A stretch of 50,141 nt of DNA, taken from Zoogloea sp. Its GTDB lineage: Bacteria > Pseudomonadota > Gammaproteobacteria > Burkholderiales > Rhodocyclaceae. The stretch lies in assembly GCF_023150065.1 (NCBI RefSeq), contig NZ_JAKLLN010000003.1:1-50141 (forward strand), in the 5' to 3' direction. Of this stretch, positions 4,410 to 47,911 are shown piece after piece (positions within the stretch are counted from its first letter, which is position 1; each line of letters begins with the position of its first letter). Both the position numbers and the translations under genes were made by a program. A model generated the notes under the pieces. It worked only from the letters and a program-made list of their open reading frames with translations. It was not told the origin of the DNA and did not search any database.

Positions 4410-9086
<4,677 letters not shown>

Positions 9087-32598: not shown

Positions 32599-32658
32599 AA
32601 GCGTGAGATGCGCTCCAAGTGGTTGATTTTCATGGCCTATTGGGGTTGTAGGCCTGCA

Positions 32659-32681
32659 TTTCCCCCACGATTTACCCCACA
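32659..32681. repeat. Two tandem 12-bp-period repeats beside the island edge
   Basis: TTTCCCCCACG (32659-32669) and TTTACCCCACA (32671-32681) are near-identical copies exactly 12 bases apart (minus-strand core GTGGGG). Short GTGGGG-type direct repeats next to an integration junction are typical of tyrosine-integrase arm sites. This assignment is inference. Confidence 0.45.
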
Positions 32682-32855
32682 AGATACCTGGGCTGGTGTG
32701 AGACGGAGTGACACGGCTGACGGCTGGCGCGCACATGATCGGACGAAGTCTATCAGCCGGTTCCGCCCTATCAATAGATCCGTGCGAAGTGTTCCTGGGC
32801 GAACAGCGATCACACTCATGATGAGCTCAAGCGTGCCCCATGCTGTAGCAGATGC

Positions 32856-32894
32856 GGTTATCAATTTGATGTATGTGGTATCCTCATTAAGAGG
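32856..32894 (+). promoter_or_regulatory. Candidate promoter and operator of the defence operon
   Basis: An extended -10, TG-G-TATCCT (hexamer 32879-32884), is the best promoter candidate; the -35 is poor (GGTTAT, 32856-32861). Between them is a perfect inverted repeat ATCAA-T-TTGAT (32860-32870), and over the -10 a second, CCTC-ATTAA-GAGG (32882-32894). Regulators of the CapW/BrxR family repress their own operon by binding such repeats, so autoregulation is likely. Confidence 0.45.
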
Positions 32895-32953
32895 TGAATA
32901 GAGTTCGACTTCTGGGTGAATCGTCGGTTGACGACGAGACTTTGGGGAAACCG

Positions 32954-33838
32954 ATGGATGTGTCGCAAGCGCAGCGAGAACGGCTGGCATTTCTTGAACT
33001 GCACGCGTTTTTTACTGGCGAGTTGCGCAGGTCAGATGTCGAGGCTCGCTTTGGCATCAAACCAGCGGCGGCGTCGCGCGATCTGACGCTCTATCGGGAG
33101 ATGGCCCCCTCCAATCTTGAGTACGATTCAACGAAGCGGTGCTATCGCCCCTCCGGAACCTTTACTCCGATCTTCCCGTTCAACTCCGATCGCGTACTTG
33201 CATGGCTGTTGCAGGGCTTTGGTGACGGGCTGGATTTGAAGTTGAAGCCGGCTGCGCCTTGCGAGGGGCCGGGGCAGTTCACCAGGCCTGATTTGAAGGC
33301 GCTAGGAGCCATCACCCGCAGCATGTGTGCTCACCGTGCTGTGCGGATCAATTACTTGTCGCTGTCCTCGGGTTCGAGGCGTCGCGAAATCGTCCCAGTC
33401 GCCTTAGCCGACAACGGTTTGCGCTGGCATGTGCGAGCCTTCGATCGCGACCGTGCTCGTTTCGGTGACTTCGTGCTTACGCGTATCTCGAAAGTTCAAG
33501 AAATTGAGGGTGAAGCCGACGAGAGAGAGCTCTTGAGTTCCGACGAGCAATGGGCTCGCATCGTCGAGATGGAGGTGGTTCCTCATCCCGGTATTAGGCA
33601 TCCCAAGGCTATCGAGGCCGACTACAGTATGCAGGATGGGGTCTTGCGCATCAAGGCGCGAGCGGCCCTCGCTGGCTATGTGCTCAGGCGTTGGAATGTG
33701 GACGCGAGCTCGGACCATCGGCTCGATCCAGCAACTCATCACCTATGGCTGCGTAACACGCCTACTCTTTATGGTGTCGAGAGTGCAGCGTTAGCGCCAG
33801 GCGGTCCCGAACTGTCCGCCGACAAGGCGGTCGTATGA
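32954..33838 (+). CDS. WYL-domain transcriptional regulator (CapW/BrxR-like)
   Basis: The 294-residue protein has an N-terminal winged helix (residues about 5-65; RSDVEARFGIKPAAASRDLT), a WYL domain in the middle (residues about 110-190; VRINYLSLSSGSRRREIVP...LRWHVRAFD) and a C-terminal WCX-like part. This layout and length match BrxR/CapW, repressors that sit at the head of phage-defence operons and sense a ligand through WYL. I start at 32954 because GGGGA lies five bases before this ATG; the frame could start from GTG at 32894. The stop overlaps the TIR-APAZ start by ATGA, so the regulator is translated with SPARTA. Codon use is less GC-biased than in the core genes. Confidence 0.85.
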   Translation: MDVSQAQRERLAFLELHAFFTGELRRSDVEARFGIKPAAASRDLTLYREMAPSNLEYDSTKRCYRPSGTFTPIFPFNSDRVLAWLLQGFGDGLDLKLKPAAPCEGPGQFTRPDLKALGAITRSMCAHRAVRINYLSLSSGSRRREIVPVALADNGLRWHVRAFDRDRARFGDFVLTRISKVQEIEGEADERELLSSDEQWARIVEMEVVPHPGIRHPKAIEADYSMQDGVLRIKARAALAGYVLRRWNVDASSDHRLDPATHHLWLRNTPTLYGVESAALAPGGPELSADKAVV

Positions 33839-35223
33839 CGCGCGAAGCAATTTTTATCAGCCACGCCACCCCGGAGGACAATGACTTCGTCCGTTGGCTC
33901 GGTTCCAAGTTGGAACTGGCCGGCTACAAGGTCTGGCATGACCTTGCGCGCTTGAAAGGCGGCGACTACTTTTGGGACAAGATCGAAGCGGCGATCCGCA
34001 GCGACTCGTTCCGCTTCATCGCAGTCGTGTCCAAAGTGGCCGTTGGCAAGCAGGGCGTCAAGGACGAATGGGCAGTGGCCGGCACCATTGAGCGAAGCGT
34101 CCCGGGCTTCATCATTCCGGTTCGCATTGACAACATCCCGTTCAGCGATGTGCCGATCTCGCTGCACCGCAAGAACCTGATCGACTTCGCGTCCGGATGG
34201 CACAAGGGCTTCGCGTCCTTGGTCGATACGCTGGAAGAGGCCCAAGCGCCCAAGGCGTCGAGTCCTGATCCGTCCCTGGCCCGCCACTGGCTGCCCGAGC
34301 TCAAGGAAGGCGCCATCGTTCGGACCGATGCAAACGAGACGCTCGATTCGACTTGGCTTCGCATCCTCTCCCTTCCTCCGACGATCGAAACCGCGCGCAT
34401 CCTCGGCAAAGATCGCGAGATCAAGGTGACGGAGGAGAACCGCAAGCTGCCCTGGTTCGAGCACGAGGATCGCATCGTCGGATTCGCCAAGGGGGCGGAT
34501 CTCGTGTCGCTGATGGCCAAGTCCGTGATGCTCAAAGCGGCCAATGCCGCGGTGACGGACACCTTCATCGATGAGGGTTCGACGCTCGGCGACAAGGACG
34601 TGCCTTGGTGGGAGGCGCGCAAGCGCGTGGGCAATCTCGTCCGACAAGCCTGGGAACTGGCGATGGAGGCTAGGGGCTTCGCGAGCGTCTACCAAGCCAG
34701 CGGCCGAAGGGTCTTCTACGCCACGCCGGAGCTCACAGGCGGGCGCGGCAAGTTCGTTTCCTACGAGGACTTCGATGGCGCGAAGCGCCGCAAGGCGCTT
34801 ACAGGCAAAAGCGAGAAGCGCGGCGCTTGCTGGGCCTACGGCGTGGGCATGGTGACGTCGTTCGACGAGCCCTGGCGCGTCGAGCTTCGCCATGCGGTCA
34901 TCTTCACTGACGACGACGGCAAACCGCTCGAGGACGCATTGAAGGCGCATCGCCTGCGCCGGGGCTTCTGCAAAAGCTGGTGGAACGAGCAGTGGCGTAC
35001 GCTCATGCGGGCGTTTCTGTGGCTGGCCTCGGAAGGCAAGCCCGAGTTGCTCTTGCCAGTCGGCTCAGGCCGCAGCATTTCGCTGTCTTCGACCCCGATC
35101 CAGTTCGAGGCGCCGTGCGGCTTGTCCGACGTAGCGCACGCCGTCGATGATGACCCAGTCGATGAGATCGACGACGATGAAGCCGCCCAGGAGGCAGAGA
35201 GCGAAGAGGAGGGCGCGCAGTGA
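33835..35223 (+). CDS. TIR-APAZ subunit of a SPARTA system
   Basis: In the 462-residue protein, residues 1-140 are a TIR domain: AIFISHATPED at the first strand, YKVWHDLARLKGGDYFWDKI, and E78 in KDEWA at the position of the catalytic NADase glutamate. Residues about 150-435 match the expected APAZ region that replaces the N/L1/L2 parts of long Argonautes. The last 25 residues are strongly acidic (DEIDDDEAAQ, ESEEEG). In studied SPARTA complexes such an acidic tail blocks the nucleic-acid channel until a guide and target load. TIR-APAZ pairs with short Argonaute; guide-RNA-dependent recognition of plasmid or phage DNA makes the complex oligomerise and consume NAD(P), killing the cell. Overlaps the regulator (ATGA) and the Argonaute gene (GTGA). 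Confidence 0.9.
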   Translation: MTREAIFISHATPEDNDFVRWLGSKLELAGYKVWHDLARLKGGDYFWDKIEAAIRSDSFRFIAVVSKVAVGKQGVKDEWAVAGTIERSVPGFIIPVRIDNIPFSDVPISLHRKNLIDFASGWHKGFASLVDTLEEAQAPKASSPDPSLARHWLPELKEGAIVRTDANETLDSTWLRILSLPPTIETARILGKDREIKVTEENRKLPWFEHEDRIVGFAKGADLVSLMAKSVMLKAANAAVTDTFIDEGSTLGDKDVPWWEARKRVGNLVRQAWELAMEARGFASVYQASGRRVFYATPELTGGRGKFVSYEDFDGAKRRKALTGKSEKRGACWAYGVGMVTSFDEPWRVELRHAVIFTDDDGKPLEDALKAHRLRRGFCKSWWNEQWRTLMRAFLWLASEGKPELLLPVGSGRSISLSSTPIQFEAPCGLSDVAHAVDDDPVDEIDDDEAAQEAESEEEGAQ

Positions 35224-36761
35224 CGTTTGCCCCTCGCCTCATCGAAATCGCCGAGCCCGAGCTGCAATTCGCGTTCAGCCAGGCGATGGCACATCCGAAG
35301 GATGGGCTCTCGCTTTACGGTCCGCTGCGCGGTCAGCTCACGGGTGGGCGGCTTCGCATCGGCGTCGTGGCCACGGCGCGCGGCCACCAAATCTACGGCA
35401 AGTTCGCAGAGCGGCTCGGCAAGCCCATTGCGCCAGCCAAGGCCGACGACCCGAACCACACCTTGTTTCCTGGATTTCAGGCGATCTTTGGAGTGGAATG
35501 GCCGTTGGAGCCAGCCGCCTTCCTCGAGATCGATCCGGCTGACCTTGATGCCGCGATCAGCATCCCCGATCGGCATCAGGCGATCCACAAGGCCGTGTCG
35601 CTGTACTCGGATGCCATCGCTGAGTATCTGCGCGATGACGCCGAGGCGCACATCGATCTCTGGATGGCGATCGTGCCGGAGGATGTACACAAACACTGCC
35701 GCCCGCAATCGAAGTCCAAGAAGGGCGGACCGGAGCAGGCTGCGCCGGTCGCGCTCATGGACAAGAAGCAAGCGACCCGACTTTTGACCAATGAGCCGGG
35801 GCTGTTCGAAGAGGATGCCAAGTCTGCGGAGATCTATCTCTACGAGCTCGACTTCCACAACCAGCTCAAGGCGCGGCTCTTGGAACACAAGGCTGCGGTG
35901 CAGGTTCTGCGCGAGACGACGATGGCGCCGGAGGAATTCCTCAACAAGATCGGCAAGCCGTTGCGCGCCTTGCAGGATCCGGCGACGCTGGCGTGGAACC
36001 TGGCGACGACTTGCTATTTCAAGGCGGGCGGTAAGCCCTGGCAACTCGCCCATGTGCGCCCCGGCGTCTGCTATGTCGGCGTCGTGTTCAAGCAGGATGC
36101 TTCGAATCCGGAGCCAGGCATGGTCTGCTGCGGCGCTCAGATGTTCTTGGAGTCCGGCGATGGCGTCGTCTTCAAGGGCACGCCGGGTCAGTTCAAGTCC
36201 GAGAAGGAAGACGAGTTCCATCTGCCCAGGGACAAGGCCAAGGCGCTAATGTCGCTGGTGGTCGAGGCCTACCGCAGGAGCCATGGCGGCGAAGCGCCCA
36301 AGGAGCTCTTCATCCATGGCAAGACGCGCTTCTCCTACGAGGAGTGGGAAGGCTTCCGCGAAACGGTGCCGCCGGAGACGAATGTGGTCTGCGTGCGCAT
36401 CCGTGAGGATTCCGGCGTCAAGCTCTATCGCCATGGCCCTAGCGCGATCGCGCGTGGCCTGGCGTGGGTGAAGTCCGAGACTCGCGGCTACCTGTGGACC
36501 AAGGGCTATGTCACGCGGCTGCAGACCTATGCCGGCCGCGAAGTTCCGAGCCCGTTAACCATCGAAATCGCGCGTGGCAATGCGGACATCGAGCAGGTTA
36601 TGGCCGACGTGTTGGGCCTGACTAAGCTGAACTACAACGCATGCATCTACGGCGATGGGGTTCCCGTGACGCTGCGCTTCGCCGACACCGTCGGCGAGAT
36701 CTTGACCGCAGCGCCGCGCAGGGAAGACCTCCCTCCGCTGCCGTTCCGTTACTACATTTGA
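35220..36761 (+). CDS. Short prokaryotic Argonaute (MID-PIWI, catalytically inactive)
   Basis: This 513-residue protein lacks N and PAZ domains and has the size and ending (PLPFRYYI) of short pAgo. The PIWI core is visible as VCYVGVVFKQD (about residue 283), VVEAYRRSHGGEAPKELFIHGKTRF (in two halves near 345-370) and the C-terminal LTKLNYNACIYGDGVPVTLRFAD. The first catalytic Asp is absent from the YVGVVF strand and the Asp after FIH is replaced by Gly, so it should not slice. It binds the guide and recognises target DNA, passing the signal to TIR-APAZ. It starts with GTG, overlapping the upstream stop by four bases. Confidence 0.9.
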   Translation: MTFAPRLIEIAEPELQFAFSQAMAHPKDGLSLYGPLRGQLTGGRLRIGVVATARGHQIYGKFAERLGKPIAPAKADDPNHTLFPGFQAIFGVEWPLEPAAFLEIDPADLDAAISIPDRHQAIHKAVSLYSDAIAEYLRDDAEAHIDLWMAIVPEDVHKHCRPQSKSKKGGPEQAAPVALMDKKQATRLLTNEPGLFEEDAKSAEIYLYELDFHNQLKARLLEHKAAVQVLRETTMAPEEFLNKIGKPLRALQDPATLAWNLATTCYFKAGGKPWQLAHVRPGVCYVGVVFKQDASNPEPGMVCCGAQMFLESGDGVVFKGTPGQFKSEKEDEFHLPRDKAKALMSLVVEAYRRSHGGEAPKELFIHGKTRFSYEEWEGFRETVPPETNVVCVRIREDSGVKLYRHGPSAIARGLAWVKSETRGYLWTKGYVTRLQTYAGREVPSPLTIEIARGNADIEQVMADVLGLTKLNYNACIYGDGVPVTLRFADTVGEILTAAPRREDLPPLPFRYYI

Positions 36762-36797
36762 CTGGCTATACCGAGAAATAAGAAAGAAGGGCTCGAC

Positions 36798-36860
36798 ATG
36801 TCTCTACTGCTGCCTTGGGAAGAGTTCGGGGGAGAGCATCTCCGGGACTGGTGTGCATGA
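36798..36860 (+). CDS. 20-codon mini-ORF coupled to the methyltransferase gene
   Basis: ATG at 36798 opens a frame of 20 codons (MSLLLPWEEF, GGEHLRDWCA) whose TGA overlaps the methyltransferase ATG as ATGA. A strong ribosome site, AAGAAGG (36784-36790), sits seven bases before its ATG, whereas the methyltransferase ATG itself has no clear one. The simplest reading is that ribosomes load at the mini-ORF and re-initiate on the methyltransferase. The peptide resembles nothing I know. It could instead be the stub of a lost gene. Confidence 0.5.
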   Translation: MSLLLPWEEFGGEHLRDWCA

Positions 36861-39559
36861 ATATCGCTGAGATCGAATCCTCGCTCAAGGAGCTGGCCGA
36901 TAAGCCATTCAGCTCCTCGGATTTCCCCTTCGAGTTCCTGGCTGCGTATGACGCGCCCAAGGCGACCATCACAAAGCTTCGCCAAGCTTCCCAGCCTGAT
37001 CTGCTCGGCGAGCCCGGTCAGATCCACTGGAAGAAGAAGCTGCTGTATCGCTGCGCGCCCAAAGGAGGGGCCGGCGCGGCTATCGAAGCCATGGCCCAGC
37101 AGTTTGAAGGCAAGAAGGATACCCCGCGGATCTTGCTCTGCACCGATGGCCAGGAGCTTCTCGCCCGCGACACCAAGACTGGCGCTACGCTCGACGTGGA
37201 GCGCTCCCTGGTCAATGATTCCTTCGATTTTTTCTTGCCGCTCGCCGGCATCGAACGCTACGAAGGCGTGGCGGAGAGCCCGGCCGACATCAAAGCAACT
37301 GGACGGCTGGCCAAGCTCTATGACGCCATCCTGGAGGCCAACCCCGATTGGAGCGAGGCGAGCTCGCACAGCCTGAACCTGTTTATGACTCGACTGCTCT
37401 TCTGCTTCTTCGCGGAAGATACCTCGATCTTCGACTCGGGTCAGTTTACCCAGGCGGCGATGACCTTCTCCCGCGAGGACGGGACGGACATGGCCGCTAC
37501 GCTCTCGCTGATTTTCCGCGCGCTGGCCCTCGACGGCCCCGTTCGCGGGGAGTTACCCGACTTCGCCCGCAAGTTCCCCTACGTCAACGGCGGGCTCTTC
37601 AAAGAGGATGCGCCGATCCCGGCCTTCTCGCGCCGCGCCCGCCGGCTGCTCAAAGGCTGCGGCGAGCTCAAATGGTCGGCGATCAACCCTGACATCTTCG
37701 GCTCGATGATCCAAGCGGTCGTGGAGCCGGGTATGCGCGGCGACATGGGCATGCACTACACGTCTGTGCCCAACATCATGAAAGCTCTGCAGCCGCTCTT
37801 CCTGCTCTCGCTCGAAGAGGACTTCGACGCCTCGCGCGACAGCGAAGCCAAGCTCACTCGACTTTTGGCTCGACTCACGCGCATCCGCATCTTCGATCCG
37901 GCTTGCGGATCAGGCAACTTCCTGATCATCGCCTATCGGGAGCTGCGCAAGCTCGAGGCGCGCATCTTCGCCAGGCTGCGCGAGCTCGGCAGCTCCGCGA
38001 TCCCGATGACGGGCATCCACCTCAATCAGTTCTACGGCATCGAGCTGGCCGATTTCGCCGTCGAGACCGCGAAGCTCTCGCTGTGGATCGCCGAGTATCA
38101 GATGAACGAGCAAGTCAAGGAGCAGTTCGGCGTCGCTCCCCCGGCCCTGCCTCTGCGAGACAGCGGCAACATCGTCCACCGCAACGCCCTGCGCGTCGAT
38201 TGGCTGGCCGTTTGCCCGCCTCGAGAGGGAGCAGAGACTTACGTGGTCGGCAACCCGCCGTATCTGGGCAGCTCCAACCAAGATGAGTCCCAAAAGGCGG
38301 ACATGGATTTGATTTTCTCGGGCCAAACCGATAACTACCGCAACCTTGACTACGTGGCGGCTTGGTATATGAAGGCCGCGGACTATGCCCAGCCCACGGC
38401 CGCGCAGTGCGCGTTCGTGGCCACCAATTCGCTATGCCAGGGCGAAATGGTCTCCATGCTCTGGCCGCTTGTCTATCGACGCGGCATGGAGATCGGCTTC
38501 GCACACCAATCCTTCAAGTGGCGCAACAACGCATCGGCCGTCGCCGGCGTCACTTGCGTCATCGTCGGCATCCGCCCGCGCTCGAGCGCCAAGAAGGTTT
38601 TGTATTCAGCCGAACTCTCGCGGGTGGTCCGAAACATCAGCCCCTACCTGATCGAGATGGACGACACCATCGTCGAAAAGGAGTCGCGCCCCATCAACGG
38701 CCTGCCGAAGATGGACAAGGGCAACATGCCAACAGACGACGGCAACCTGATCCTCTCACCCGATGAGAAGGCCGACCTGCTGGCGCGCTTCCCGGCCGCT
38801 GCGAAGTTCGTCCGCCGTTACTACGGCACGCAGGAGTTCATCAAGGGCATCGAGCGATATTGCCTGTGGATCCTTGACGAAGATGCCCAAGAGGCCGCGA
38901 GCATTCCGCCGATCAAAGCGCGCCTCGATGCCGTGGCCGCCTTCCGCCTGGCCAGCCCCGCGCCGACCACGCAGGAATACGCCGCCTGGCCCCATCGCTT
39001 CCGTCAGATCCAAGACTTCGGCTCGGACGCTGTGCTGGTGCCGATTCACTTCTCCGAAGACCGCGAATACTTCACCATCGGCTTCGCGTCCGGTGAGGAC
39101 TCGATCCTGAGCAACGCCACCTTCGCGATCTACAACGCCTCGCCCTATGTGATGGCGCTGCTGTCGACGCGGCTGCATGCCGTTTGGGTCTCGACCGTGT
39201 GCGGCGGCCTGGAGACGCGTATCCGCTACTCCAACACGATGGGCTACCACACCTTCCCCATCCCCAACCTTTCCGATGAGCAAAAGCAGGAGCTCGAGGA
39301 CCACGCATGGGCAATCATCGCCGCACGCGAGGAGCATCCAGGAATGACCATCGGCGAGCTCTACGACCCCGAGGCCATGCCCGAAGGGCTGCTGGCAGCC
39401 CATCGCGCTCTTGATGACACCTTGGAGCGCATCTGCATCGGTCGACCGTTCCGCAACGACACCGAGCGGCTGGAATACCTTTTCAAGCAATATGTCGCTT
39501 TGAAGCGCAAAGACAGGTCCGGCTCCAACCGCGAGCTGGCCTTGAGGAGAGCCCGATGA
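36857..39559 (+). CDS. MmeI-like DNA N6-adenine methyltransferase lacking the nuclease motif
   Basis: This 900-residue protein matches the MmeI (type IIG/IIL) plan along its length: N-terminal domain, helical spacer (RLLFCFFAEDTSIFD), methyltransferase with motif I DPACGSGNF (about residue 346) and motif IV NPPY (about 466), a target-recognition domain (GIERYCLWI, about 664) and the C-terminal helical part (LYDPEAMPEGLLAAH). In MmeI the N-terminal domain carries a D...ExK nuclease; here the aligned segment reads HWKKKLLYRCAPKGG with no such residues, so cleavage must come from other subunits. It should methylate adenine in one strand of its site. Start at 36857 by ATGA overlap with the mini-ORF; a TTG at 36815 is a weaker option. 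Overlaps the helicase gene by ATGA. Confidence 0.87.
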   Translation: MNIAEIESSLKELADKPFSSSDFPFEFLAAYDAPKATITKLRQASQPDLLGEPGQIHWKKKLLYRCAPKGGAGAAIEAMAQQFEGKKDTPRILLCTDGQELLARDTKTGATLDVERSLVNDSFDFFLPLAGIERYEGVAESPADIKATGRLAKLYDAILEANPDWSEASSHSLNLFMTRLLFCFFAEDTSIFDSGQFTQAAMTFSREDGTDMAATLSLIFRALALDGPVRGELPDFARKFPYVNGGLFKEDAPIPAFSRRARRLLKGCGELKWSAINPDIFGSMIQAVVEPGMRGDMGMHYTSVPNIMKALQPLFLLSLEEDFDASRDSEAKLTRLLARLTRIRIFDPACGSGNFLIIAYRELRKLEARIFARLRELGSSAIPMTGIHLNQFYGIELADFAVETAKLSLWIAEYQMNEQVKEQFGVAPPALPLRDSGNIVHRNALRVDWLAVCPPREGAETYVVGNPPYLGSSNQDESQKADMDLIFSGQTDNYRNLDYVAAWYMKAADYAQPTAAQCAFVATNSLCQGEMVSMLWPLVYRRGMEIGFAHQSFKWRNNASAVAGVTCVIVGIRPRSSAKKVLYSAELSRVVRNISPYLIEMDDTIVEKESRPINGLPKMDKGNMPTDDGNLILSPDEKADLLARFPAAAKFVRRYYGTQEFIKGIERYCLWILDEDAQEAASIPPIKARLDAVAAFRLASPAPTTQEYAAWPHRFRQIQDFGSDAVLVPIHFSEDREYFTIGFASGEDSILSNATFAIYNASPYVMALLSTRLHAVWVSTVCGGLETRIRYSNTMGYHTFPIPNLSDEQKQELEDHAWAIIAAREEHPGMTIGELYDPEAMPEGLLAAHRALDDTLERICIGRPFRNDTERLEYLFKQYVALKRKDRSGSNRELALRRAR

Positions 39560-41556
39560 CCGATTTCGTCCAGATCACCTACGCCCAGACCGGGGCCAGC
39601 CAGTCCGTCGATCAGATGGGCATGCGCGCCATGCAAGCGCGCGCCTTCGACGAGCGCGGCTCGCAATACCTGCTGGTCAAGGCACCGCCGGCTTCCGGCA
39701 AGTCTCGCGCACTTATGTTCATCGCCTTGGATAAGCTGCATCGCCAGGGCGTTCGCAAGGCGATCGTCGCGGTGCCGGAGCGCTCGATCGGTTCCTCGTT
39801 CAAATCCACCCCGCTCTCCAAGGACGGCTTCTTTGCCGACTGGGAGGTCGCCCCGGAGTGGAACCTGACCTCCGCCGGTGGCGCGCAGAAGACCAAGGCC
39901 TTCGCCGAGTTCATGCAAAGCGGAGCCCAGGCCCTGGTCTGCACGCACGCGACCCTGCGCTTTGCCTTCGAGCAGCTCGGCGCGCAGGCTTTCGACAACT
40001 GCCTGCTGGCCATCGACGAGTTCCACCACGCCTCGGCCGACGACGAAAGCCGCTTGGGTGAACTGGTGCGCATCCTGGTCGATCGCGACAAGGCGCACAT
40101 CGTCGCGATGACCGGCAGCTACTTCCGCGGGGACGCCGCGCCGGTGCTGCGGCCCGAGGACGAGGCGCGCTTCAACCGAGTCACATACACCTACTACGAG
40201 CAGCTCAACGGCTACAAGGATCTGAAGACTCTGGGCATCGGCTACCACTTCTACCGCGGTCGCTACATCGATGCGATTAACGAGGTGCTCGACCCCTCCA
40301 AAAAGACCATCGTCCACATCCCCAGCGTGCGCTCGGCCGAAGCCACCGGCGAGGGCAAGTATGGCGAGGTCGATCGGATCCTCGATCACCTGGGCCGGGT
40401 GCTCGGGCGCGACGCGGCCACCGGCTTCTATAGCGTCGAGCGTCCCGACGGCTCGAAGCTCATCGTCGCCGATCTCGTCGACGACGGCCCCGAGCGCGAG
40501 CGCGTGATGGGGTCGCTGCGTGAGATCAAGGGCCGTGACGACGTGGACATCATCATCGCGCTGGGCATGGCCAAGGAAGGCTTCGACTGGATCTGGTGCG
40601 AGCACGCGCTGACTGTCGGCTACCGTGGCTCGCTCACCGAGATCATCCAGATCATCGGCCGCGCGACCCGCGACGCTCCCGGTAAGCCCCACGCCCAGTT
40701 CACCAACCTCATCGCCGAGCCCGATGCCTCCGAGGAGCGGGTGGTGGAGGCCGTGAACAACATGCTCAAGGCTATCGCCTGCTCGCTGCTCATGGAGCAG
40801 GTCTTGGCGCCCAACTTCAAGTTCCGAGCCAAGGATGGGAGCGACGAGATCGACGGTTCGCGCCGCGAGACCGACATCGTGTTCGACAAGGATGGCGCCA
40901 CCTCGATTGCGATCAACGGATTCAAGGAGCCGTCGACTGAGCGCAGCCGCCAGATCATCGAGACAGACTTGGCGGATTTGACCGCCGCGATCTTCCAAGA
41001 CGACTCAATCCTGCGCGCGTCGCTGAACCCCGATGAATACGCGCCGGAGGTGGTCAATCAGGTCTACATCCCCCGGGTGATCCAGACCAAGTATCCCGAC
41101 CTCACCGACGACGAGATCGAGGAGATCCGCCAAGCAGTGGTGGCCAACGGCGCTTTCAAGAGCCCGCAGATCGAGATTGATCCCGCCCTTGGCGACGTGG
41201 ATCCCGACGCCAAGGGCGGCTCGAAATTCATCCGGCTGGCCGAGAAGCTGATCAACATCGACGAGCTGAGCATCGACCTCATCGACAGCATCAACCCCTT
41301 CCAACGTGCCTACGAGATCCTCTCCAAGTCCGTCACCGCCGACGTGCTCCGCACCATCCATGGCGCGATCTCGGCGACGAGGGTCGCGATGACCGAGGAA
41401 GAGGCCGTGGCGCTGTTCCCGCGCATCAAGGCCTTCACCGCCGAGCGTAGACACGAGCCGAACCTGAACTCGGCCAGCCCGATGGAGCGTCGGATGGCGG
41501 AAGCCCTGGCCTGGATCCGCGAGGCCAAGCGCAAGCGCATGGCCGCCGGAGGCTGA
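39556..41556 (+). CDS. SF2 DEAD/DEAH-type helicase
   Basis: In the 666-residue protein, residues 40-230 hold the first RecA domain with Walker A APPASGKS (43-50), DEFHH (about 153-157, motif II) and MTGSYF (motif III). The second RecA domain ends with motif VI QIIGRATRD (about 364). The C-terminal 250 residues are unassigned and rich in D/E/R. Helicases of this type move DNA for type I/III-like restriction systems. Its start overlaps the methyltransferase stop, and the GIY-YIG gene begins four bases after its stop, so it is a core member of the five-gene set. Confidence 0.87.
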   Translation: MTDFVQITYAQTGASQSVDQMGMRAMQARAFDERGSQYLLVKAPPASGKSRALMFIALDKLHRQGVRKAIVAVPERSIGSSFKSTPLSKDGFFADWEVAPEWNLTSAGGAQKTKAFAEFMQSGAQALVCTHATLRFAFEQLGAQAFDNCLLAIDEFHHASADDESRLGELVRILVDRDKAHIVAMTGSYFRGDAAPVLRPEDEARFNRVTYTYYEQLNGYKDLKTLGIGYHFYRGRYIDAINEVLDPSKKTIVHIPSVRSAEATGEGKYGEVDRILDHLGRVLGRDAATGFYSVERPDGSKLIVADLVDDGPERERVMGSLREIKGRDDVDIIIALGMAKEGFDWIWCEHALTVGYRGSLTEIIQIIGRATRDAPGKPHAQFTNLIAEPDASEERVVEAVNNMLKAIACSLLMEQVLAPNFKFRAKDGSDEIDGSRRETDIVFDKDGATSIAINGFKEPSTERSRQIIETDLADLTAAIFQDDSILRASLNPDEYAPEVVNQVYIPRVIQTKYPDLTDDEIEEIRQAVVANGAFKSPQIEIDPALGDVDPDAKGGSKFIRLAEKLINIDELSIDLIDSINPFQRAYEILSKSVTADVLRTIHGAISATRVAMTEEEAVALFPRIKAFTAERRHEPNLNSASPMERRMAEALAWIREAKRKRMAAGG

Positions 41557-41560
41557 CAGC

Positions 41561-42772
41561 ATGGCCGCCAAGAAGACGCTCGATGAGCTGCTCTCCGAGG
41601 AGGCCGACTCGGAGCTGCTCAACGTCAAGCCCCGACAGGCCAAAGCGATCGACACGGCCGCGCGAGCTCGGGCGCAGTTCGAGGAGATCAACGCTTTCGT
41701 CGAGCGTAATGGCTTCGCGCCCGGGAAAGGCGGCGAGAGTCGAAAAGTCGGCGTGATGGAGCGCTCCCTGCAGGCGCGCCTGCGCGCTTACCAGGACAAC
41801 CCGGAACTCGCGGCCACCCTGGGCGAGATCGACCGGCATGGGCTGCTCTCCGCTGCGCCCAAGCCCGAGCCCAAGAGCCTCGACGAGTTGCTCGACAGCG
41901 ACGATCCGCTGCTCATCGATCCTAACGGCGGCCTCTTCGAGTTGCGCCACGCCAAGGGTTCGCCGGCGCGGCCCGACATGGTGTCGGAGCGTGAGCCCTG
42001 CGCGGACTTCGAAACGTTCAAGCCCCTATTCGACAAGGCCGCCGCGGAGCTCTCCTCAGGCGTTCGCAGGAGCGTGCAATTCGCCAATGAGCAGGAGATC
42101 GAGGCCGGCGGCTTCTTCATCCTCAATGGCGTAATGGTCTATGTCGCCGAGGTGCGCGATCCGCACATCCGCAACGGCAAGCGTAACGCCAGGCTGCGCC
42201 TGATCTTCGACAACGGGACCGAGGGCCAGAACCTGCTGCGCTCGCTGGCCACCCAGCTCTACAAGGATCCCAACGGGCGGCGCATCTCCGACCCAAACGC
42301 GGGGCCGCTCTTCGGCTCCGAGAAGTCTGTGGAGGTCCAGCCCGCCCAAGGCCAGGATCGCGTCACCGGCGTCATCTACGTGGTCAAGAGCCTCTCGAAG
42401 CTCCCCGAGATCGCCCGGCTCGACGGCAGCCTCTTCAAGATCGGCTTCACCACGGGGAACCTCGAGACGCGCTTGCGTGGGGTCGAGGACGATCCGACCT
42501 TCTTGATGGCGCCAGTCAAGCCGGTGATGAGCTACCAGGCGATCAACTTGAACGCCAATGCCTTCGAGCGTCTCGTTCACCACTTCTTCGGTGAGGCCAG
42601 GTTGGACATCGAAGTCAAGGACCGCTTCGGCAAGGCGATCAAGCCGCGCGAATGGTTCTTGCTGCCGCTGCCGATCATTGAGCAGGCGATCCCGCTGATC
42701 GTTGATGGCTCGATCCTGCGCTACCGCTATGACCATCGGGCGTGCGCGATTGTCGAGGCGAGCAAAGCCTAG
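41561..42772 (+). CDS. GIY-YIG/T5orf172-type nuclease domain protein
   Basis: In the 403-residue protein, the C-terminal third has the GIY-YIG variant layout of T5orf172/MUG113 proteins: GVIYVVKS (about residue 270), LFKIGFTTGN...R (about 292-303), an ERLVHHFF helix with a conserved Glu, and REWFLLPL at the end. The N-terminal 250 residues form a helical region (DELLSEEADSELL, DELLDSDDPLL) and a mixed domain that I cannot name. It may be a DNA nicking nuclease or DNA-binding module of the system. The LSEEADSE and LLDSDD repeats (residues about 7-18 and 108-117) are similar to each other. Confidence 0.8.
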   Translation: MAAKKTLDELLSEEADSELLNVKPRQAKAIDTAARARAQFEEINAFVERNGFAPGKGGESRKVGVMERSLQARLRAYQDNPELAATLGEIDRHGLLSAAPKPEPKSLDELLDSDDPLLIDPNGGLFELRHAKGSPARPDMVSEREPCADFETFKPLFDKAAAELSSGVRRSVQFANEQEIEAGGFFILNGVMVYVAEVRDPHIRNGKRNARLRLIFDNGTEGQNLLRSLATQLYKDPNGRRISDPNAGPLFGSEKSVEVQPAQGQDRVTGVIYVVKSLSKLPEIARLDGSLFKIGFTTGNLETRLRGVEDDPTFLMAPVKPVMSYQAINLNANAFERLVHHFFGEARLDIEVKDRFGKAIKPREWFLLPLPIIEQAIPLIVDGSILRYRYDHRACAIVEASKA

Positions 42773-42780
42773 CAGCCGAG

Positions 42781-43656
42781 ATGCCGAACATACGGTCCCT
42801 GGACATGAAGCTCGTCGACGACCTGTTCGACATGGGCAATGGCTACGTGCTCGATTTCTCGGACCGGACGATGTCATCCTTCTTCGTCGAGGAGCTCAAC
42901 GTCGACATTGACGATCCGGCCTATCGGGATCTAGGCACCTCGAAGGCCAAACGCCTGCGCTGCTACTTGAACAAGGTGGACCTGGCCACGTCGATCAAGA
43001 CGCTCAAAGCCCTTTGGGATTACCGCGAGGCCACTCGCAAGGACAGCCGGCGCGAGGAGTGGGTCGACAACGCCGAAGGGCGTTTCCTCTCGCTGCTTAA
43101 CCGCATGCAGGGCAAGCCCGACCAGGCGTCGGCCCCGCAGGGAGAGCCGCCCAAGCCCGCGTTCGATCGGCCGAAGATCATCCTTTTGAAGCAGAAGCTC
43201 ATCGAGCTGTCGGCCTTGGAGCCGCAGCCGCGGGGCTATGCGTTCGAGGCCTGGCTCACAAACACCTTCAACGTGTTCGGCTTGCAAGCCCGCGAGCCGT
43301 TCCGCCTGCGCGGCGAGCAGATCGATGGGAGCTTCCAGTTGCAAGGCGAGACCTACTTGGTCGAGGCCAAGTGGCACTCGGCGCAGACCCCTGCGGCCGA
43401 CCTGCATGCTTTCCACGGCAAGGTCGAGCAGAAGGCGGCATGGGCCCGCGGGCTCTTCATCAGCAACAGCGGTTTCACGCCCGATGGCCTGATCGCCTTT
43501 GGCAAAGGGAAGCGCGTGATCTGCATGGACGGCTTCGACCTATTCGAGACGCTCGATCGCGAGCTGCCGCTCGACCAGGTGATCGCCCGCAAGGCGCGCC
43601 GGGCCGCGGAGACGGGCCTGCCGTTCGAGCGTGTGCGAGACATCTTCGGCCACTGA
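42781..43656 (+). CDS. Mrr-like PD-(D/E)XK restriction endonuclease
   Basis: In the 291-residue protein, residues about 150-260 are a restriction-endonuclease-like fold of the Mrr type: GYAFEAWL helix with conserved Glu, REPFRLRGEQIDGSF with the catalytic Asp in QIDG (about 182), YLVEAKW with the ExK motif (about 194-196), and HGKVEQK. The N-terminal 140 residues are helical and unassigned. All catalytic positions are present. The start at 42781 follows the GIY-YIG stop by 8 bases; ribosome binding is weak there, so coupling is likely. It is the best candidate for the cutting subunit that the MmeI-like protein lacks. Confidence 0.85.
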   Translation: MPNIRSLDMKLVDDLFDMGNGYVLDFSDRTMSSFFVEELNVDIDDPAYRDLGTSKAKRLRCYLNKVDLATSIKTLKALWDYREATRKDSRREEWVDNAEGRFLSLLNRMQGKPDQASAPQGEPPKPAFDRPKIILLKQKLIELSALEPQPRGYAFEAWLTNTFNVFGLQAREPFRLRGEQIDGSFQLQGETYLVEAKWHSAQTPAADLHAFHGKVEQKAAWARGLFISNSGFTPDGLIAFGKGKRVICMDGFDLFETLDRELPLDQVIARKARRAAETGLPFERVRDIFGH

Positions 43657-43686
43657 GGCCGAGGTCCAGACAAGAAAGGGGAGACG

Positions 43687-45663
43687 ATGACCAAACCAAA
43701 GGCAAAGCAGAAGGCCGACGATTCGACTGGATCGCTGTTCGAGGAGAACTACCTCGTCCGCACGCTCGGGCGCATCGCCCAAGATCCCGAGGTGGCGCTC
43801 ACCGAGCTCGTGGCCAACGCCTGGGATGCCGGCGCGTCCCTCGTGGACCTAACCATCCCTCCCACCAATGAGCTGGCTTTGACAGTCGAGGACGATGGCC
43901 ATGGCATGAACGCCGGCCAGTTCAAGGGCCGCTGGATGAAGCTGGGCTACAACCGCCTCAAGCATCAAAGCGCGTTGGTCGAGTTCCCGCCGGAGCGCCA
44001 AGGCTGGCGCCGCAAGGCCTATGGGCGCAACGGCGTCGGCCGGCACGGGCTGCTGTGCTTTGCCGACCAGTATTCGGTGGAGACCTGGCGCGAGGACAAG
44101 GGCGCGAGCTTCGACATCGGCACCCAGAGCGAAGAGAACCCTTTCAAGATCGAGAAGGAGGGATCCTTCCTGAGGAAGGGCCACGGGACCAAGCTCTCCG
44201 TGATCGTCCAGCGGCACTTGCCCGACGCCGATGCCATCCGCGAGATCCTGGCGGGGCGCTTCGTCCACGACCCCCAGTTCGTCGTCCGGGTCAACGGGGT
44301 GTCGGTCGCGTTGGCCGAACAAATAGGCTTGATCGAGAAGCAGGACTTGCAGATCCCCGGCTGCCCGCCGGCCGAGGCCTTCGTCGTCGACACGACGCGG
44401 ACGGCCAAATACACCCTCTACCAAGGCATCGCCTTCTGGGTGAATGGGCGCCTGGTCGGCGTCCCGAGCTGGGTGGTTGGCTCGGAGGCCGTGATCGATG
44501 GCCGAGCGCGCTTCGCCAAGCGCTTCTCGATCGTCATCAAGGCCGACGACGGCTGGCTGCCGGAGGTCGAGCAGGACTGGGTGCGATTCAAGAGCGGCAA
44601 GAAGGTCGATGCGCTCTTCGAGGCCGCCCGCGACTACGCCAAGAAGGTGTTCGCCCAGCTTTCGGCGACGCTGGTGGAGGAGAGCTCCGAAGAGGCCCTG
44701 GTCAAGAACCGCGAGGACTTCAAGGAGCTTTCGCCCCTGGGCCGGGCCGAGGTCGCCAGCTTTGCCCGCGACCTGGTGAAGGCCACGCCCACCGTCTCGC
44801 AGGACGTGCTCTCGGCGGCAGTGCAGGCCGTCATCAACTTGGAGAAGGCCCGCGGTGGGGCTGCGTTACTTGAAAAACTCACCAAGCTCGACGAGTCCGA
44901 CATCGACGGCCTCGACCGACTGCTAAGCCAATGGACCGTGCGCGACGCGTTGTCGGTGCTCGACGAGATTGACCAACGCCTGGCGGTGATTGTGGCCATC
45001 GAGAAGCTTTCCGGCGACGATTCAACCGACGAACTGCACACCCTCCATCCACTGGTTACGCAGGCCCGATGGCTATTCGGCCCCGAGTTCGACAGCAGCG
45101 AATACGCATCCAACGTGAGTCTCAAGACGGCCGCCGAAAAGGTCTTTCAGAAGCGCCTCTCCAAGGATGCCTTCGTCAACGCCAAGCAGCGCCCAGACAT
45201 CATGGCGCTAGCCAATGCGACGTGCTCGATCGTTGGTACAGAGGGATTCGATCCAACGGATCCCACGCTCACGCGCATCCAAAACGTCCTGATCATCGAG
45301 TTGAAGAAAGGTCGCTCCGCGATCGGCCGCGACGAGATGAACCAAGCCGACGGCTATGTGCAGGACTTCCTCGAAAGCGGTGCGCTCGACGGAACGCCGA
45401 TGTTCCGCGCCTTCGTCGTTGGCTACGAGATCGCGCCCAAAACCGTGCGTGAGAAGGATCTGATGGAGGAGAAAGTTTTGCGGGGCAGAGTGCAGGCCGT
45501 CACCTACGGCCAGCTTACGCGTTCGGCCCATCAGCGACTGTTTCGTCTGAAAGAACGCATCCCGGCGCGCTACGAGGACGTGTCCGGAGCGGATCTGTCG
45601 GCGAAAGTGATGCAGATCGCTTCGCAGACTACGCTTGGGCTGGAGATGCCAGCCAAACGTTGA
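43687..45663 (+). CDS. GHKL ATPase with C-terminal PD-(D/E)XK-like motif
   Basis: In the 658-residue protein, the N-terminal GHKL ATP site is complete: TELVANAWDAGA (N box, about 38-49), VEDDGHGM (G1, about 67-74) and GRNGVGRHG (about 113-121). This is the MutL/Hsp90/MORC-like ATPase fold. Residues about 320-480 are helical. Near 500-560 the pattern RPDI...VLIIELKKG...QADGYVQDF has the Asp, ExK and Q..Y arrangement of PD-(D/E)XK nucleases, so this may be an ATP-gated clamp with a second nuclease. A strong ribosome site (AAAGGGGAG) precedes the start. It is the last gene of the operon; MORC-type ATPases occur in several defence systems. Confidence 0.8.
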   Translation: MTKPKAKQKADDSTGSLFEENYLVRTLGRIAQDPEVALTELVANAWDAGASLVDLTIPPTNELALTVEDDGHGMNAGQFKGRWMKLGYNRLKHQSALVEFPPERQGWRRKAYGRNGVGRHGLLCFADQYSVETWREDKGASFDIGTQSEENPFKIEKEGSFLRKGHGTKLSVIVQRHLPDADAIREILAGRFVHDPQFVVRVNGVSVALAEQIGLIEKQDLQIPGCPPAEAFVVDTTRTAKYTLYQGIAFWVNGRLVGVPSWVVGSEAVIDGRARFAKRFSIVIKADDGWLPEVEQDWVRFKSGKKVDALFEAARDYAKKVFAQLSATLVEESSEEALVKNREDFKELSPLGRAEVASFARDLVKATPTVSQDVLSAAVQAVINLEKARGGAALLEKLTKLDESDIDGLDRLLSQWTVRDALSVLDEIDQRLAVIVAIEKLSGDDSTDELHTLHPLVTQARWLFGPEFDSSEYASNVSLKTAAEKVFQKRLSKDAFVNAKQRPDIMALANATCSIVGTEGFDPTDPTLTRIQNVLIIELKKGRSAIGRDEMNQADGYVQDFLESGALDGTPMFRAFVVGYEIAPKTVREKDLMEEKVLRGRVQAVTYGQLTRSAHQRLFRLKERIPARYEDVSGADLSAKVMQIASQTTLGLEMPAKR

Positions 45664-45680
45664 GCGCCTCACGTAATACT

Positions 45681-45712
45681 CTGCGGAGATTTCGATTACT
45701 CGAACCCCGCAG
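45681..45712. repeat. Inverted repeat after the defence operon
   Basis: CTGCGG (45681-45686) and CCGCAG (45707-45712) enclose a smaller TTCGA-TTAC-TCGAA repeat. It could fold into a hairpin at the operon end. There is no T tract, so it is not a normal intrinsic terminator. Confidence 0.35.
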
Positions 45713-45806
45713 CTACGGCAATTTGGCGGATACCGCAGTCAGCGCCGTGTCCAAACTCCGTCCAACTGCTCCGCCCGGCTGGATTCGCCTCAGCAACCCG
45801 TCAAGC
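45713..45806 (-). pseudogene. Detached C-terminal tail of a paralogue of the 47384-47911 gene
   Basis: The minus strand encodes LDTALTAVSAKLP-stop, close to LEKALTAVSAEPP in the intact gene at 47384. The DNA is similar too: the 12-mer GGCGGATACCGC is shared and roughly 70 percent of the flanking 50 bases match by eye. It is a leftover copy of the gene's end without its beginning. Confidence 0.55.
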
Positions 45807-45827
45807 GCACTATAGGGGCGCACAGTG

Positions 45828-46000
45828 GGCGTTCTCGATCTGCCCACGTGGGCGTCATTGTCCAAGCCGAGGAAATCAAATAGATACGAGTCCTTGAGCG
45901 TTTCGTGCGTCAGTTGTGACGGCGGCGCGGGCAGACGCTGGTCGAAGTTGGTGATGGCCTGACCCTCCCTACCGTTCGTGCGGGCGATTGCGGCTGTGGA
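45828..46000 (-). pseudogene. DUF1016 (YhcG-type nuclease) gene fragment
   Basis: The minus strand reads REGQAITNFDQRLP, then ETLKDSYLFDFLGL, then DNDAH. These are hallmark strings of DUF1016, a PD-(D/E)XK nuclease family. After DNDAH the match continues only in another frame (QIENA, 45828-45841), so there is a frameshift, and a stop follows shortly. Neither the N- nor the C-terminal domain is intact. Confidence 0.6.
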
Positions 46001-46157
46001 ATTGCAGTGTCGCCCGTCCCCTCAGCCATACTCCACGGCTTGGGCTAGATGCCGGACTCGTTTATCGCGGCTTGTTCTGCACGGTTCAGAGTTGGAATCA
46101 AGGCAATTGTGTAGTGATCTGCTGCACAAATTCAGCCCAGCATTTTCTCGATCGTCG

Positions 46158-47276
46158 TCATGGATGCACCAATTCATAGCCCGTACTGCGTCCACCCCCA
46201 GGCGCTTTCCGCAGCACCCCCACCCCCAGCAGCTGCGTGATGTCCCGCAGCGCCGTATCCGGCGAGCACTTGCCGATGGTCGCCCACTTGCTGCTGGTGA
46301 GCTTGCCGTCGAAGCCATCGAGCAGGCGATTGAGGAGCTTGATCTGGCGCTCGTTCATCGGCGTGCCGGCCCAGCGTTGCCAGAACCGAGCTTTGGCCAG
46401 CACGCTGTCGAGCGTGGTCTGGGCGCTGGCGATGGCTCGGCCCAGCGTGCCGAGGAACCAAGCCAGCCACTCGGTGACGTCCAGCGAGCCCTTCTGGGTG
46501 CGTTCGAGGATGTCGTAGTAGGCCTTGCGCTCGCGCTGGATCTGCGCCGACAGGCTGTAGAAGCGCTGCTCGGCGCCATCGGCACGCGCCAGGAACAGAT
46601 CGCCCACGGCGCGCGCGATGCGGCCATTGCCGTCGTCGAACGGGTGCAGGGTGACAAACCACAGGTGGGCCAGCCCGGCCTTGATAAGCGCAGGCTCGTC
46701 TGTTTCGTCGTTGGCCCATGTCAGGAATCGTGCCATCTCAGCCGGCAGCACGGCTGCGGGGGGCGCCTGGAAGTGAACCTTGCGACGGTTCACCGGGCCG
46801 GACACGACCTGCATCGGGCCGGCTGCGTCATCACGCCATTGGCCCACGGCGATCCTGGCAAGGCCCGAGTAGCCCGTCGGGAACAGGGCGGCATGCCAGC
46901 CGAACAGGCGCTTGGCCGTCAAAGGCTCGGTGCTGCGCGAGGTGGCGTCGAGCACCATCTCGACCACGCCCTCGACATGTCGATCAACTGGCGCCAGTGC
47001 GCCGATGTCCATGCCCAGGCGGCGGGCGATGGACGAGCGGACGGAGGCGACGTCCAGCAGTTCGCCTTCGATCTCGCTGGTCTTGACCACATCGTCCGTC
47101 AGTGCCGCCAGGCTGGCTTGGTCGCGCAACACCAGCCCGACGTCGGCCAGACGACCCAGCAGCATGCCCTGGGCGCGGCTGACCTCGGCCAGCGCTTGGG
47201 CCAATGCAGGCAGGTCGTAGTGCCACTGGGGCCAGTCGGCGGATTGCCAGATGTAGAGATTTTCTCCGCTATACAT
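46158..47276 (-). CDS. Fic-family AMPylase with N-terminal inhibitory motif
   Basis: In the 372-residue protein, the N-terminus (NLYIWQSADWPQWHYD) is the DUF4172 type found in Fic proteins. KTSEIEG (about residue 70) fits the S/TxxxE(G/N) inhibitory helix, so it is class II, autoinhibited. The active site HPFDDGNGRIAR is canonical and should transfer AMP from ATP to a target side chain. A winged-helix domain ends the protein (MNERQIKLLNRLLDG to STGYELVHP). The start complementary to 47274-47276 fits the family N-terminus; the open frame runs 189 codons further upstream without meaning. The target is unknown; such proteins act in toxin, stress or signalling roles. The gene lies among mobile-element remnants. 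Confidence 0.88.
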   Translation of the reverse strand: MYSGENLYIWQSADWPQWHYDLPALAQALAEVSRAQGMLLGRLADVGLVLRDQASLAALTDDVVKTSEIEGELLDVASVRSSIARRLGMDIGALAPVDRHVEGVVEMVLDATSRSTEPLTAKRLFGWHAALFPTGYSGLARIAVGQWRDDAAGPMQVVSGPVNRRKVHFQAPPAAVLPAEMARFLTWANDETDEPALIKAGLAHLWFVTLHPFDDGNGRIARAVGDLFLARADGAEQRFYSLSAQIQRERKAYYDILERTQKGSLDVTEWLAWFLGTLGRAIASAQTTLDSVLAKARFWQRWAGTPMNERQIKLLNRLLDGFDGKLTSSKWATIGKCSPDTALRDITQLLGVGVLRKAPGGGRSTGYELVHP

Positions 47277-47282
47277 GCGGAG
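47264..47282. repeat. Hairpin over the Fic start codon
   Basis: CTCCGC (47264-47269), a seven-base loop TATACAT and GCGGAG (47277-47282) form a perfect six-pair stem. The proposed fic ATG (complement of 47274-47276) sits in the loop, so the fold could modulate translation of the mRNA. Confidence 0.45.
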
Positions 47283-47295
47283 ATTAAACACCCAA

Positions 47296-47337
47296 TTCAC
47301 CGCATGGGCAAGTGATTGCCGCAATTCATGCGGTGAA
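47296..47337. repeat. 11-bp inverted repeat upstream of fic
   Basis: TTCACCGCATG (47296-47306) and CATGCGGTGAA (47327-47337) are perfect reverse complements 20 bases apart, 20 to 61 bases before the fic start. It may be an operator for fic or the 3' hairpin of the upstream gene. Confidence 0.5.
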
Positions 47338-47383
47338 AGAGGCCTGCAATCACCGCACGGGGCGGCGATTCCGCTGCGCTTCG

Positions 47384-47911
47384 CTACTTGATTCGTCGCA
47401 GCCGCGGTGGCTCGGCGGATACCGCTGTCAACGCCTTCTCCAGGCCACGATCCACGTGTCCGCGCAGCCAGGTTCGCGCGAGCAGGCGTCGGATCACCTG
47501 TACGGGCAGGTACAGCACCCCGAGGGGCGCGGCCCCCACCAGGACCAGTACATCCCAGCCGAGGGCCAGGGCGGCGCCCGAGGCGATGATGCCAACCGAC
47601 ACGAGCCCGTCGCAGCGGTGCAGCAGCAGCGGCGGATCGGCGCGGATGAAGTTGACCTGTCGGCCTGTGTTCAGGTTCACCAGGCCCACGACCAGCTCGC
47701 CGAGCAACAGCACGCAGACCTCGTGCCCACGCCGTGCCGGCATCGAGCGGCTGTGGACTATGAGCTTCACGTCCTGGTCGACGCCATCGGTTCGGGCCAG
47801 CCAGAACTCCCGCCGCTCGCGCGCGGGATACTGCTCGCACCACCGCATGGGGACATTGATGTAGCGCTGCACTTCGGTCAATTGGCCGGTGACATACCAG
47901 AACTTGCTCAT
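47384..47911 (-). CDS. Conserved hypothetical membrane protein
   Basis: This 175-residue protein has a hydrophilic N-terminal half (MSKFWYVTGQLTEVQRY, WCEQYPARERREFW) and, after residue about 110, one or two hydrophobic segments (GLVSVGIIASGAALALG; VLVLVGAAPLGVLYLP). A basic tail ends LTAVSAEPPRLRRIK. It is likely an inner-membrane protein of unknown role. A good GAGAGGAG ribosome site precedes the start complementary to 47909-47911; the open frame extends upstream without function. A degraded copy of its tail lies at 45713. It precedes fic by 107 bases on the same strand. Confidence 0.7.
   Translation of the reverse strand: MSKFWYVTGQLTEVQRYINVPMRWCEQYPARERREFWLARTDGVDQDVKLIVHSRSMPARRGHEVCVLLLGELVVGLVNLNTGRQVNFIRADPPLLLHRCDGLVSVGIIASGAALALGWDVLVLVGAAPLGVLYLPVQVIRRLLARTWLRGHVDRGLEKALTAVSAEPPRLRRIK

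Follow-up and report, generated by a model that had tools for sequence, protein, structure and literature searches.

Do the five co-directional genes at 36857-45663 on the + strand of a Zoogloea sp. contig form one defence machine, or do they contain a smaller conserved system? The genes lie in a 50,141-nt stretch of NZ_JAKLLN010000003.1 (the whole stretch is called the window here) and encode, in order, an MmeI-like adenine methyltransferase, a superfamily 2 (SF2) helicase, a GIY-YIG/T5orf172 protein, an Mrr-like nuclease (gene 4) and a GHKL ATPase protein (gene 5). An earlier note on this DNA described five tightly coupled genes with these domain identities, and the Pfam domains, the window's list of open reading frames (ORFs), in which all five are real ORFs, and the spacings of -4, +4, +8 and +30 nt bear this out. 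The spacings take the ATG at 42781 as the likely start of gene 4, whose ORF opens at the GTG at 42742. The conserved unit is the first three genes, not the five. By its domains and gene order this trio is the published dnmA-yeeB-yeeC cluster, which is widespread and little studied. The window probably holds a split restriction-modification (R-M) system of the DnmA-YeeB-YeeC type, followed by two captured, semi-independent nucleases, in a defence island.

The methyltransferase has the full MmeI plan, as the note had claimed, with MmeI_N, MmeI_hel, MmeI_Mtase, MmeI_TRD and MmeI_C all above the Pfam cut-off and the motifs DPACGSGNF and NPPY present. It follows the MmeI structure (5hr4) over residues 77-881 (E=3.5e-176) and matches the PADLOC model REase_MTase_IIG (PDLC03598) over nearly its full length (E=2.1e-276), so annotation with this model may list loci of the dnmA type among the type IIG restriction enzymes. 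Unlike MmeI and other type IIL enzymes, it has no N-terminal D...ExK, and motor and nuclease are encoded in separate genes. The loss of this motif, also claimed before, is clear in alignment with nuclease-bearing relatives, where Q-R-A replaces D-E-K at the nuclease columns.

The motif loss follows the partner genes. The alignment comprises 91 methyltransferase ORFs of more than 820 aa from the fetched loci plus the window protein (92 rows; it omits L016, which is partial, L177 with 751 aa, L179 and L021, which are in pieces, and others). Two pairs of loci are identical (L056 and L165, L087 and L214), leaving 90 distinct rows, and motif and gap counts are given for distinct loci. None of the 83 distinct methyltransferases whose locus has helicase and GIY ORFs keeps D-E-K; a looser pattern (D-x(8-12)-[ED]-x-K at any N-terminal position) fits two of them, without the D-E-K columns. 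All five aligned relatives with neither partner found in the locus keep it, for example RIDLFWKGKLLAEHKS in L175. In the two remaining rows, L163 and L167, the motif is absent and a helicase match lies near the edge of the fetched stretch. On the methyltransferase side, 21 loci with strong MmeI_Mtase matches were taken (20 with E<1e-80 and one gene in two pieces, in genome G208): 15 have a helicase, four have none over more than 8 kb, and two are cut off behind the gene (L175 and L177). The four, L173, L174, L176 and L178, are the solitary enzymes with D-E-K and more than 8 kb visible behind the methyltransferase gene. A tree restricted to the spacer and the methyltransferase region separates the five nuclease-bearing rows from the other 87 with support 1.0. 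The simplest reading is that the MmeI nuclease was lost once, as the helicase and GIY genes were gained. The loss holds family-wide, and it is very probable that cutting now resides in a separate subunit and that an SF2 motor has been added, as the earlier note had suggested for this locus.

The trio recurs in many genomes, and the five genes do not. A profile scan with the GIY protein found at least 532 relatives, and the best 80 loci were kept for tblastn with the five window proteins. Matches to methyltransferase, helicase and GIY protein stand in that order in 71 of these 80, counting the window's own record. The methyltransferase match covers no more than 69 residues in L057, is split in two in L021 and is truncated by the contig end in several loci. 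Of the other nine loci, seven match with helicase and GIY and two with GIY alone; seven of the nine start 135 nt or less from a contig end, and L073 has 1.1 kb upstream without a methyltransferase match. In L019, the 7.8 kb upstream of the helicase-GIY pair (upstream of 7864) likewise holds no match, and the methyltransferase there has been lost or is encoded elsewhere. The full five-gene set is found in one of the best 80 GIY loci, its own record, and is absent from the other 79, of which 78 have a GIY ORF; 69 of these 78 show at least 3 kb behind it. The closest relative found (L209, genome G680) has a helicase 75% identical to that of the window, with best methyltransferase and GIY segments at 55% and 64%, and carries the trio without Mrr or GHKL. 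It is one of the three loci nearest the window in the methyltransferase tree, the others being L216 and L217, all with the trio only. Plasmid loci of Bosea, Zymomonas, Klebsiella, Rhodococcus and Ligilactobacillus also have the trio without Mrr or GHKL.

In none of the other loci examined does an Mrr or GHKL gene lie directly behind the GIY gene. When 115 trio, partial and solitary MmeI-type loci (two pairs identical) were searched again, GHKL matches were confined to the solitary locus L173 and to L020, where 101 residues match roughly 9 kb downstream of the GIY gene, and the catalytic half of Mrr had no match in the 115. The earlier note had named a lack of joint conservation in other genomes as grounds for refuting its five-gene proposal; such a lack is seen for the five, whose co-conservation is rejected, but not for the trio.

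The trio is common. A helicase match is present in 30 of the 399 genomes of the host's order, the own genome included and a few matches partial; the window's own assembly has one. No GIY relatives were found in phages, nor in viral contigs by a search reaching close relatives only. Recurrent fragments of the helicase (residues 148-660 or 1-156) occur on Acinetobacter plasmids, for example H65 and H73. Genes named yeeA, yeeB and yeeC are described inside Tn2006 and Tn2009 in PMC9258068, and pieces of the trio system may travel in these transposons.

In the published cluster, known from B. subtilis and relatives (PMC9973331; Nye 2020, PMC7261158), the MmeI-related DnmA is followed by an SF2 helicase and then by a T5orf172/GIY-YIG protein, in conserved order. 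PMC9973331 credits the absence of a nuclease motif in DnmA to Morgan 2009 and reports that DnmA makes N6-methyladenine at the asymmetric site GACGAG. The window shares the nuclease-less MmeI-like methyltransferase, the helicase at +1 and the T5orf172/GIY-YIG gene at +2, all on one strand, and the defence neighbourhood; it differs by two more nuclease genes behind the trio and by a pair resembling the short prokaryotic Argonaute TIR-APAZ (SPARTA) system directly upstream. One relative on a plasmid, at 51% identity, carries the annotation 'DNA helicase restriction/modification system component YeeB', and the Firmicutes relative L256 has the trio with its methyltransferase annotated in pieces. 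The B. subtilis control genome matches MmeI_Mtase and T5orf172 at family level, the T5orf172 search being insensitive (it missed the window's own match). Among the matches listed in a literature search that included few subscription papers, the five-gene version is unnamed and the trio has no defence-system name. The idea that no named system applies survives in part: no model of PADLOC-2023 fits the helicase (two marginal matches), the GIY protein or the Mrr protein (no match for either), and of the trio just the methyltransferase matches a model strongly, that for type IIG restriction enzymes, but the trio itself is already known as dnmA-yeeB-yeeC.

These features suggest how the trio might work. 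The MmeI-derived subunit would recognise an asymmetric site and methylate one adenine as a mark of self, and, its own nuclease site having decayed, it would double as the specificity subunit. Bound to unmodified DNA, the complex may recruit or license the SF2 helicase, which would translocate or remodel DNA with ATP while the GIY-YIG subunit cuts. The trio would thus resemble a Type I or Type III enzyme built from a type IIL methyltransferase. Judged from sequence, the three proteins may form a complex whose cleavage is gated by methylation, with an anti-phage role in the host. The Mrr-like and GHKL-PD-(D/E)XK proteins would be mobile defence nucleases captured behind the trio, perhaps on a shared transcript, and not obligate subunits.

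Gene 4 has the catalytic motif IDG...E-A-K-W, invariant in all eight aligned sequences, and its full-length relatives are 42-59% identical to it. None of the ten places viewed has the trio or gene 5 near such a relative (L150-L156 by tblastn, L252-L254 by annotation). On two Rhizobiales plasmids (L252 and L253) the relative, an Mrr-type 'restriction endonuclease' 58-59% identical to gene 4, lies between AbiEii/DUF6088 and Hachiman hamA, upstream of the latter; the window has no Hachiman. In L150 and L151 it adjoins apparent AbiEii-type and Fic genes, and elsewhere other genes. Two proteins with the N-terminal domain of gene 4, marked by SKAKRLR, were scanned against Pfam, and in neither did this domain match.

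Gene 5 can be aligned over its whole length with seven relatives (28-31% identity). The motifs ELVANAWD, DxGxG and GRNGxGR and a C-terminal RPD...E-x-K...Q are conserved in the eight aligned proteins, with D for E in L158. Because the RPD...ELKK...Q block is conserved in the relatives, the C-terminus is assigned to the PD-(D/E)XK nucleases. The protein was earlier taken for a mere ATP-gated clamp; it is instead a fusion of GHKL ATPase and nuclease of the paraMORC3 type, and its C-terminal nuclease is a point beyond the earlier note. The paraMORC3 plan, as given in Iyer 2008 (PMC2292703), is a GHKL N-terminus, a middle region and a C-terminal PD-(D/E)XK nuclease. VcSduA, proposed as Shedu type I-D, needs both ATPase and nuclease residues for phage defence in E. 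coli, according to PMC12137116. Gene 5 resembles both in its predicted GHKL ATPase with intact motifs fused to a nuclease. It differs from Shedu in that Shedu models match one of the eight aligned members, weakly (Pfam SduA_C/DUF4263, E=0.028; PADLOC, 0.049), and do not match the window protein; a profile comparison with one Shedu protein was not significant. The NCBIfam model for the BbrUII/HgiDII restriction enzyme gives 7.4e-30, below the cut-off of the model. Among the nine places viewed, some relatives of gene 5 adjoin RusA/HepT, AbiEii or Shedu genes, some stand by themselves and others have an MmeI-type enzyme nearby. A conserved Mrr-GHKL pair was considered and rejected, as genes 4 and 5 are not together in the places viewed outside the window. 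Both genes look like mobile add-ons and are most likely semi-independent extra nucleases, perhaps on the same transcript as the trio.

Several points weigh against a split R-M trio with two captured nucleases. The solitary control is slightly weakened by two loci: L175 ends 107 nt behind the gene, where a helicase is possible, and L177, a sixth relative outside the alignment that reads FIDLLWKGKLIVEHKS (VEHKS), is cut off 259 nt behind the gene. Among solved structures nothing usable matched the helicase or the GIY protein. The match to dnmA-yeeB-yeeC is by domains, motifs and gene order. The 8- and 30-nt spacings of the Mrr and GHKL genes are as expected of a functional operon. The N-terminal domain of gene 4 recurs in small proteins of five dnmA-type loci (L015, L051, L062, L063 and L163), encoded between methyltransferase and helicase (profile comparison with L051 at 7077-7907, E=9.4e-15), which may hint at more than chance association. 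Finally, PMC9973331 reports that deletion of dnmA, yeeB or yeeC in B. subtilis had no effect on three phages, and its authors call the cluster a non-functional relic.

It is possible, though unlikely, that in this lineage all five genes work as a single system, in which the methyltransferase marks and recognises, the helicase moves, and the GIY, Mrr and GHKL-nuclease proteins are joint effectors. In its fullest form this would be a lineage-specific five-protein machine, a rather improbable one, in which unmarked DNA passes from the methyltransferase-specificity subunit and the helicase to three different nucleases, among them an ATP-gated GHKL-PD-(D/E)XK ring; if true, Shedu/paraMORC3-type and Mrr-type effectors would be plugged into a site-specific R-M sensor. 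The co-directional packing and the recurring Mrr N-terminal domain speak for it, as do the GHKL relatives near MmeI-type enzymes in two of the nine places (adjacent in L158; about 3 kb off in L248, with transposase genes between). A further point is L016 (record Thauera sp. isolate MAG.443), which has the same genes in the same order at 100% identity from methyltransferase residue 409 to the end of gene 5; this locus may come from the same data as the window. Against this stand the 79 other loci without the set, the closest relative with its trio alone, and the ten Mrr places with neither trio nor GHKL gene.

The trio may alternatively be a decayed restriction system kept for its methyltransferase, an orphan epigenetic regulator as proposed for B. 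subtilis. The B. subtilis phage tests agree with this, as do the transformation tests, likewise negative in PMC9973331, and three relatives look broken at the methyltransferase: L057 with its 69-residue match, and L021 and L179 with the gene in two pieces. However, relics would not keep their catalytic motifs, and helicase and GIY protein retain theirs in the window and, with few exceptions, in the relatives. Among 92 distinct helicase ORFs of more than 600 aa, Walker A is kept in 91, DEFHH in 92, TGSYFRGD in 92 and QxIGRATR in 85. The strict GIY-YIG pattern fits 70 of 100 distinct GIY ORFs, and 99 once I/V exchanges, S for T and Q for H are allowed. NPP[YF] is present in 88 and DPA[CS]GxGNF in 89 of the 90 distinct methyltransferase rows. 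Because these motifs are kept in nearly all relatives, the family is unlike relics. Homologues in V. crassostreae also protect against some phages, as PMC9973331 reports from Piel et al., and the trio sits in a defence island; decay is a doubtful account of it.

Least probable is an exclusion without cleavage like that of bacteriophage exclusion (BREX), with methylation marking self, the helicase blocking replication of unmarked DNA and the GIY protein only binding DNA: the methyltransferase shares domains with PglX and DrmMI, and DnmA sites are not depleted in phage genomes according to PMC9973331, but the GIY catalytic residues are conserved and no PglZ, BrxC, BrxL or Drm partner was found among ten proteins scanned.

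The earlier note had also set the genes apart from BREX, from the defence island system associated with restriction-modification (DISARM) and from type I and III R-M, rightly so, as no partner proteins of these were found among those scanned. BREX fails on the same ten proteins, which hold no BrxC/PglY or other partner match, PglX sharing only the methyltransferase domain. For DISARM, there was no DrmA, DrmB or DrmC among the ten, and the only similarity is to a DrmMI-type methyltransferase. Type I R-M would call for HsdS or an HsdR fusion, neither of which was found among the proteins scanned; here one gene encodes the motor and another the GIY nuclease, while the target recognition domain lies inside the methyltransferase. 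Type III R-M has no partner proteins among the ten, and a type IIL (MmeI) enzyme fails for want of an N-terminal PD-(D/E)XK nuclease in the same polypeptide (Q-R-A). Overall the earlier note is partly supported: its observation was correct and its insight of split cutting is right and general; the novelty and the five-gene unit are unsupported.

For the preferred reading, a split R-M trio with captured nucleases, other dnmA-type loci offer a parallel. In 87 distinct loci with methyltransferase and helicase ORFs on one strand, the gap between the two is below 150 nt in 46 and at least 400 nt in 40. Among the 40 wide gaps, that of L179 is an artefact of its two-ORF methyltransferase, and those of L034 and L086 lack any ORF of 110 aa. 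What the gaps encode varies (examples are L015:12411-14251, L056:6635-7945 and L093:7004-7849); ten taken through Pfam gave one RhuM, one PDDEXK_4, one DUF1016/YhcG nuclease, two Schlafen AlbA_2 and five without a match. The Mrr and GHKL genes of the window look like the same accessory habit at the other end of the operon. More generally, though with rather low probability, the dnmA-type loci may be a platform with slots, behind the methyltransferase and behind the GIY gene, for exchangeable nucleases.

The set is assigned to a defence island because a WYL regulator gene and a TIR-APAZ/short prokaryotic Argonaute (pAgo) pair precede it (Table 1). The pair, a point that the earlier note did not include, ends 95 nt ahead of the methyltransferase gene. 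WYL, TIR-APAZ and short pAgo genes follow one another at 32894-36761, with 4-nt overlaps, directly upstream of the set. Downstream of the five genes, a Fic protein with a DUF4172 domain is encoded at 46158-47843 on the - strand. A scan of 32600-46200 gave two promoter-like and three terminator-like matches, no more than in shuffles.

Table 1. Coordinates of the five genes and of the pair upstream, in window positions.
Feature	Position	Strand	Evidence
MmeI-like (type IIL-derived) adenine DNA methyltransferase without N-terminal nuclease motif; DnmA/YeeA-like modification and target-recognition subunit	36857..39559	+	Pfam, PADLOC, MmeI 5hr4, motifs
SF2 (DEAD-type) helicase/translocase, YeeB-like	39556..41556	+	Pfam DEAD 4.5e-08; PPASGKS, DEFHH, MTGSYFRGD, QIIGRATR
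GIY-YIG/T5orf172 nuclease subunit, YeeC-like, with conserved N-terminal region	41561..42772	+	Pfam MUG113 2.2e-11, T5orf172 3.4e-10; G.IYV...K.G.T...R...E pattern conserved
Mrr-like PD-(D/E)XK nuclease with N-terminal 'SKAKRLR' domain, add-on gene	42781..43656	+	Pfam Mrr_cat 2e-08
GHKL ATPase fused to C-terminal PD-(D/E)XK nuclease (paraMORC3/VcSduA-like), add-on gene	43687..45663	+	Pfam HATPase_c_3 5.9e-15
TIR-APAZ and short pAgo pair (SPARTA-like), separate system in the same island	33835..36761	+	PADLOC Aga_TIR-PNTD1-PNTD2 7.8e-138, pAgo_I 9e-199; Pfam TIR_2

What is new here is the sharp link of nuclease loss to the partner genes, together with the accessory slots. The system is a common one, both by its GIY relatives and by its share of the genomes of the host's order. 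That the loss of the nuclease tracks the presence of helicase and GIY genes makes the idea of a split enzyme directly testable. The same correlation also raises the question of whether the verdict of a relic, given for B. subtilis, fits the whole family.

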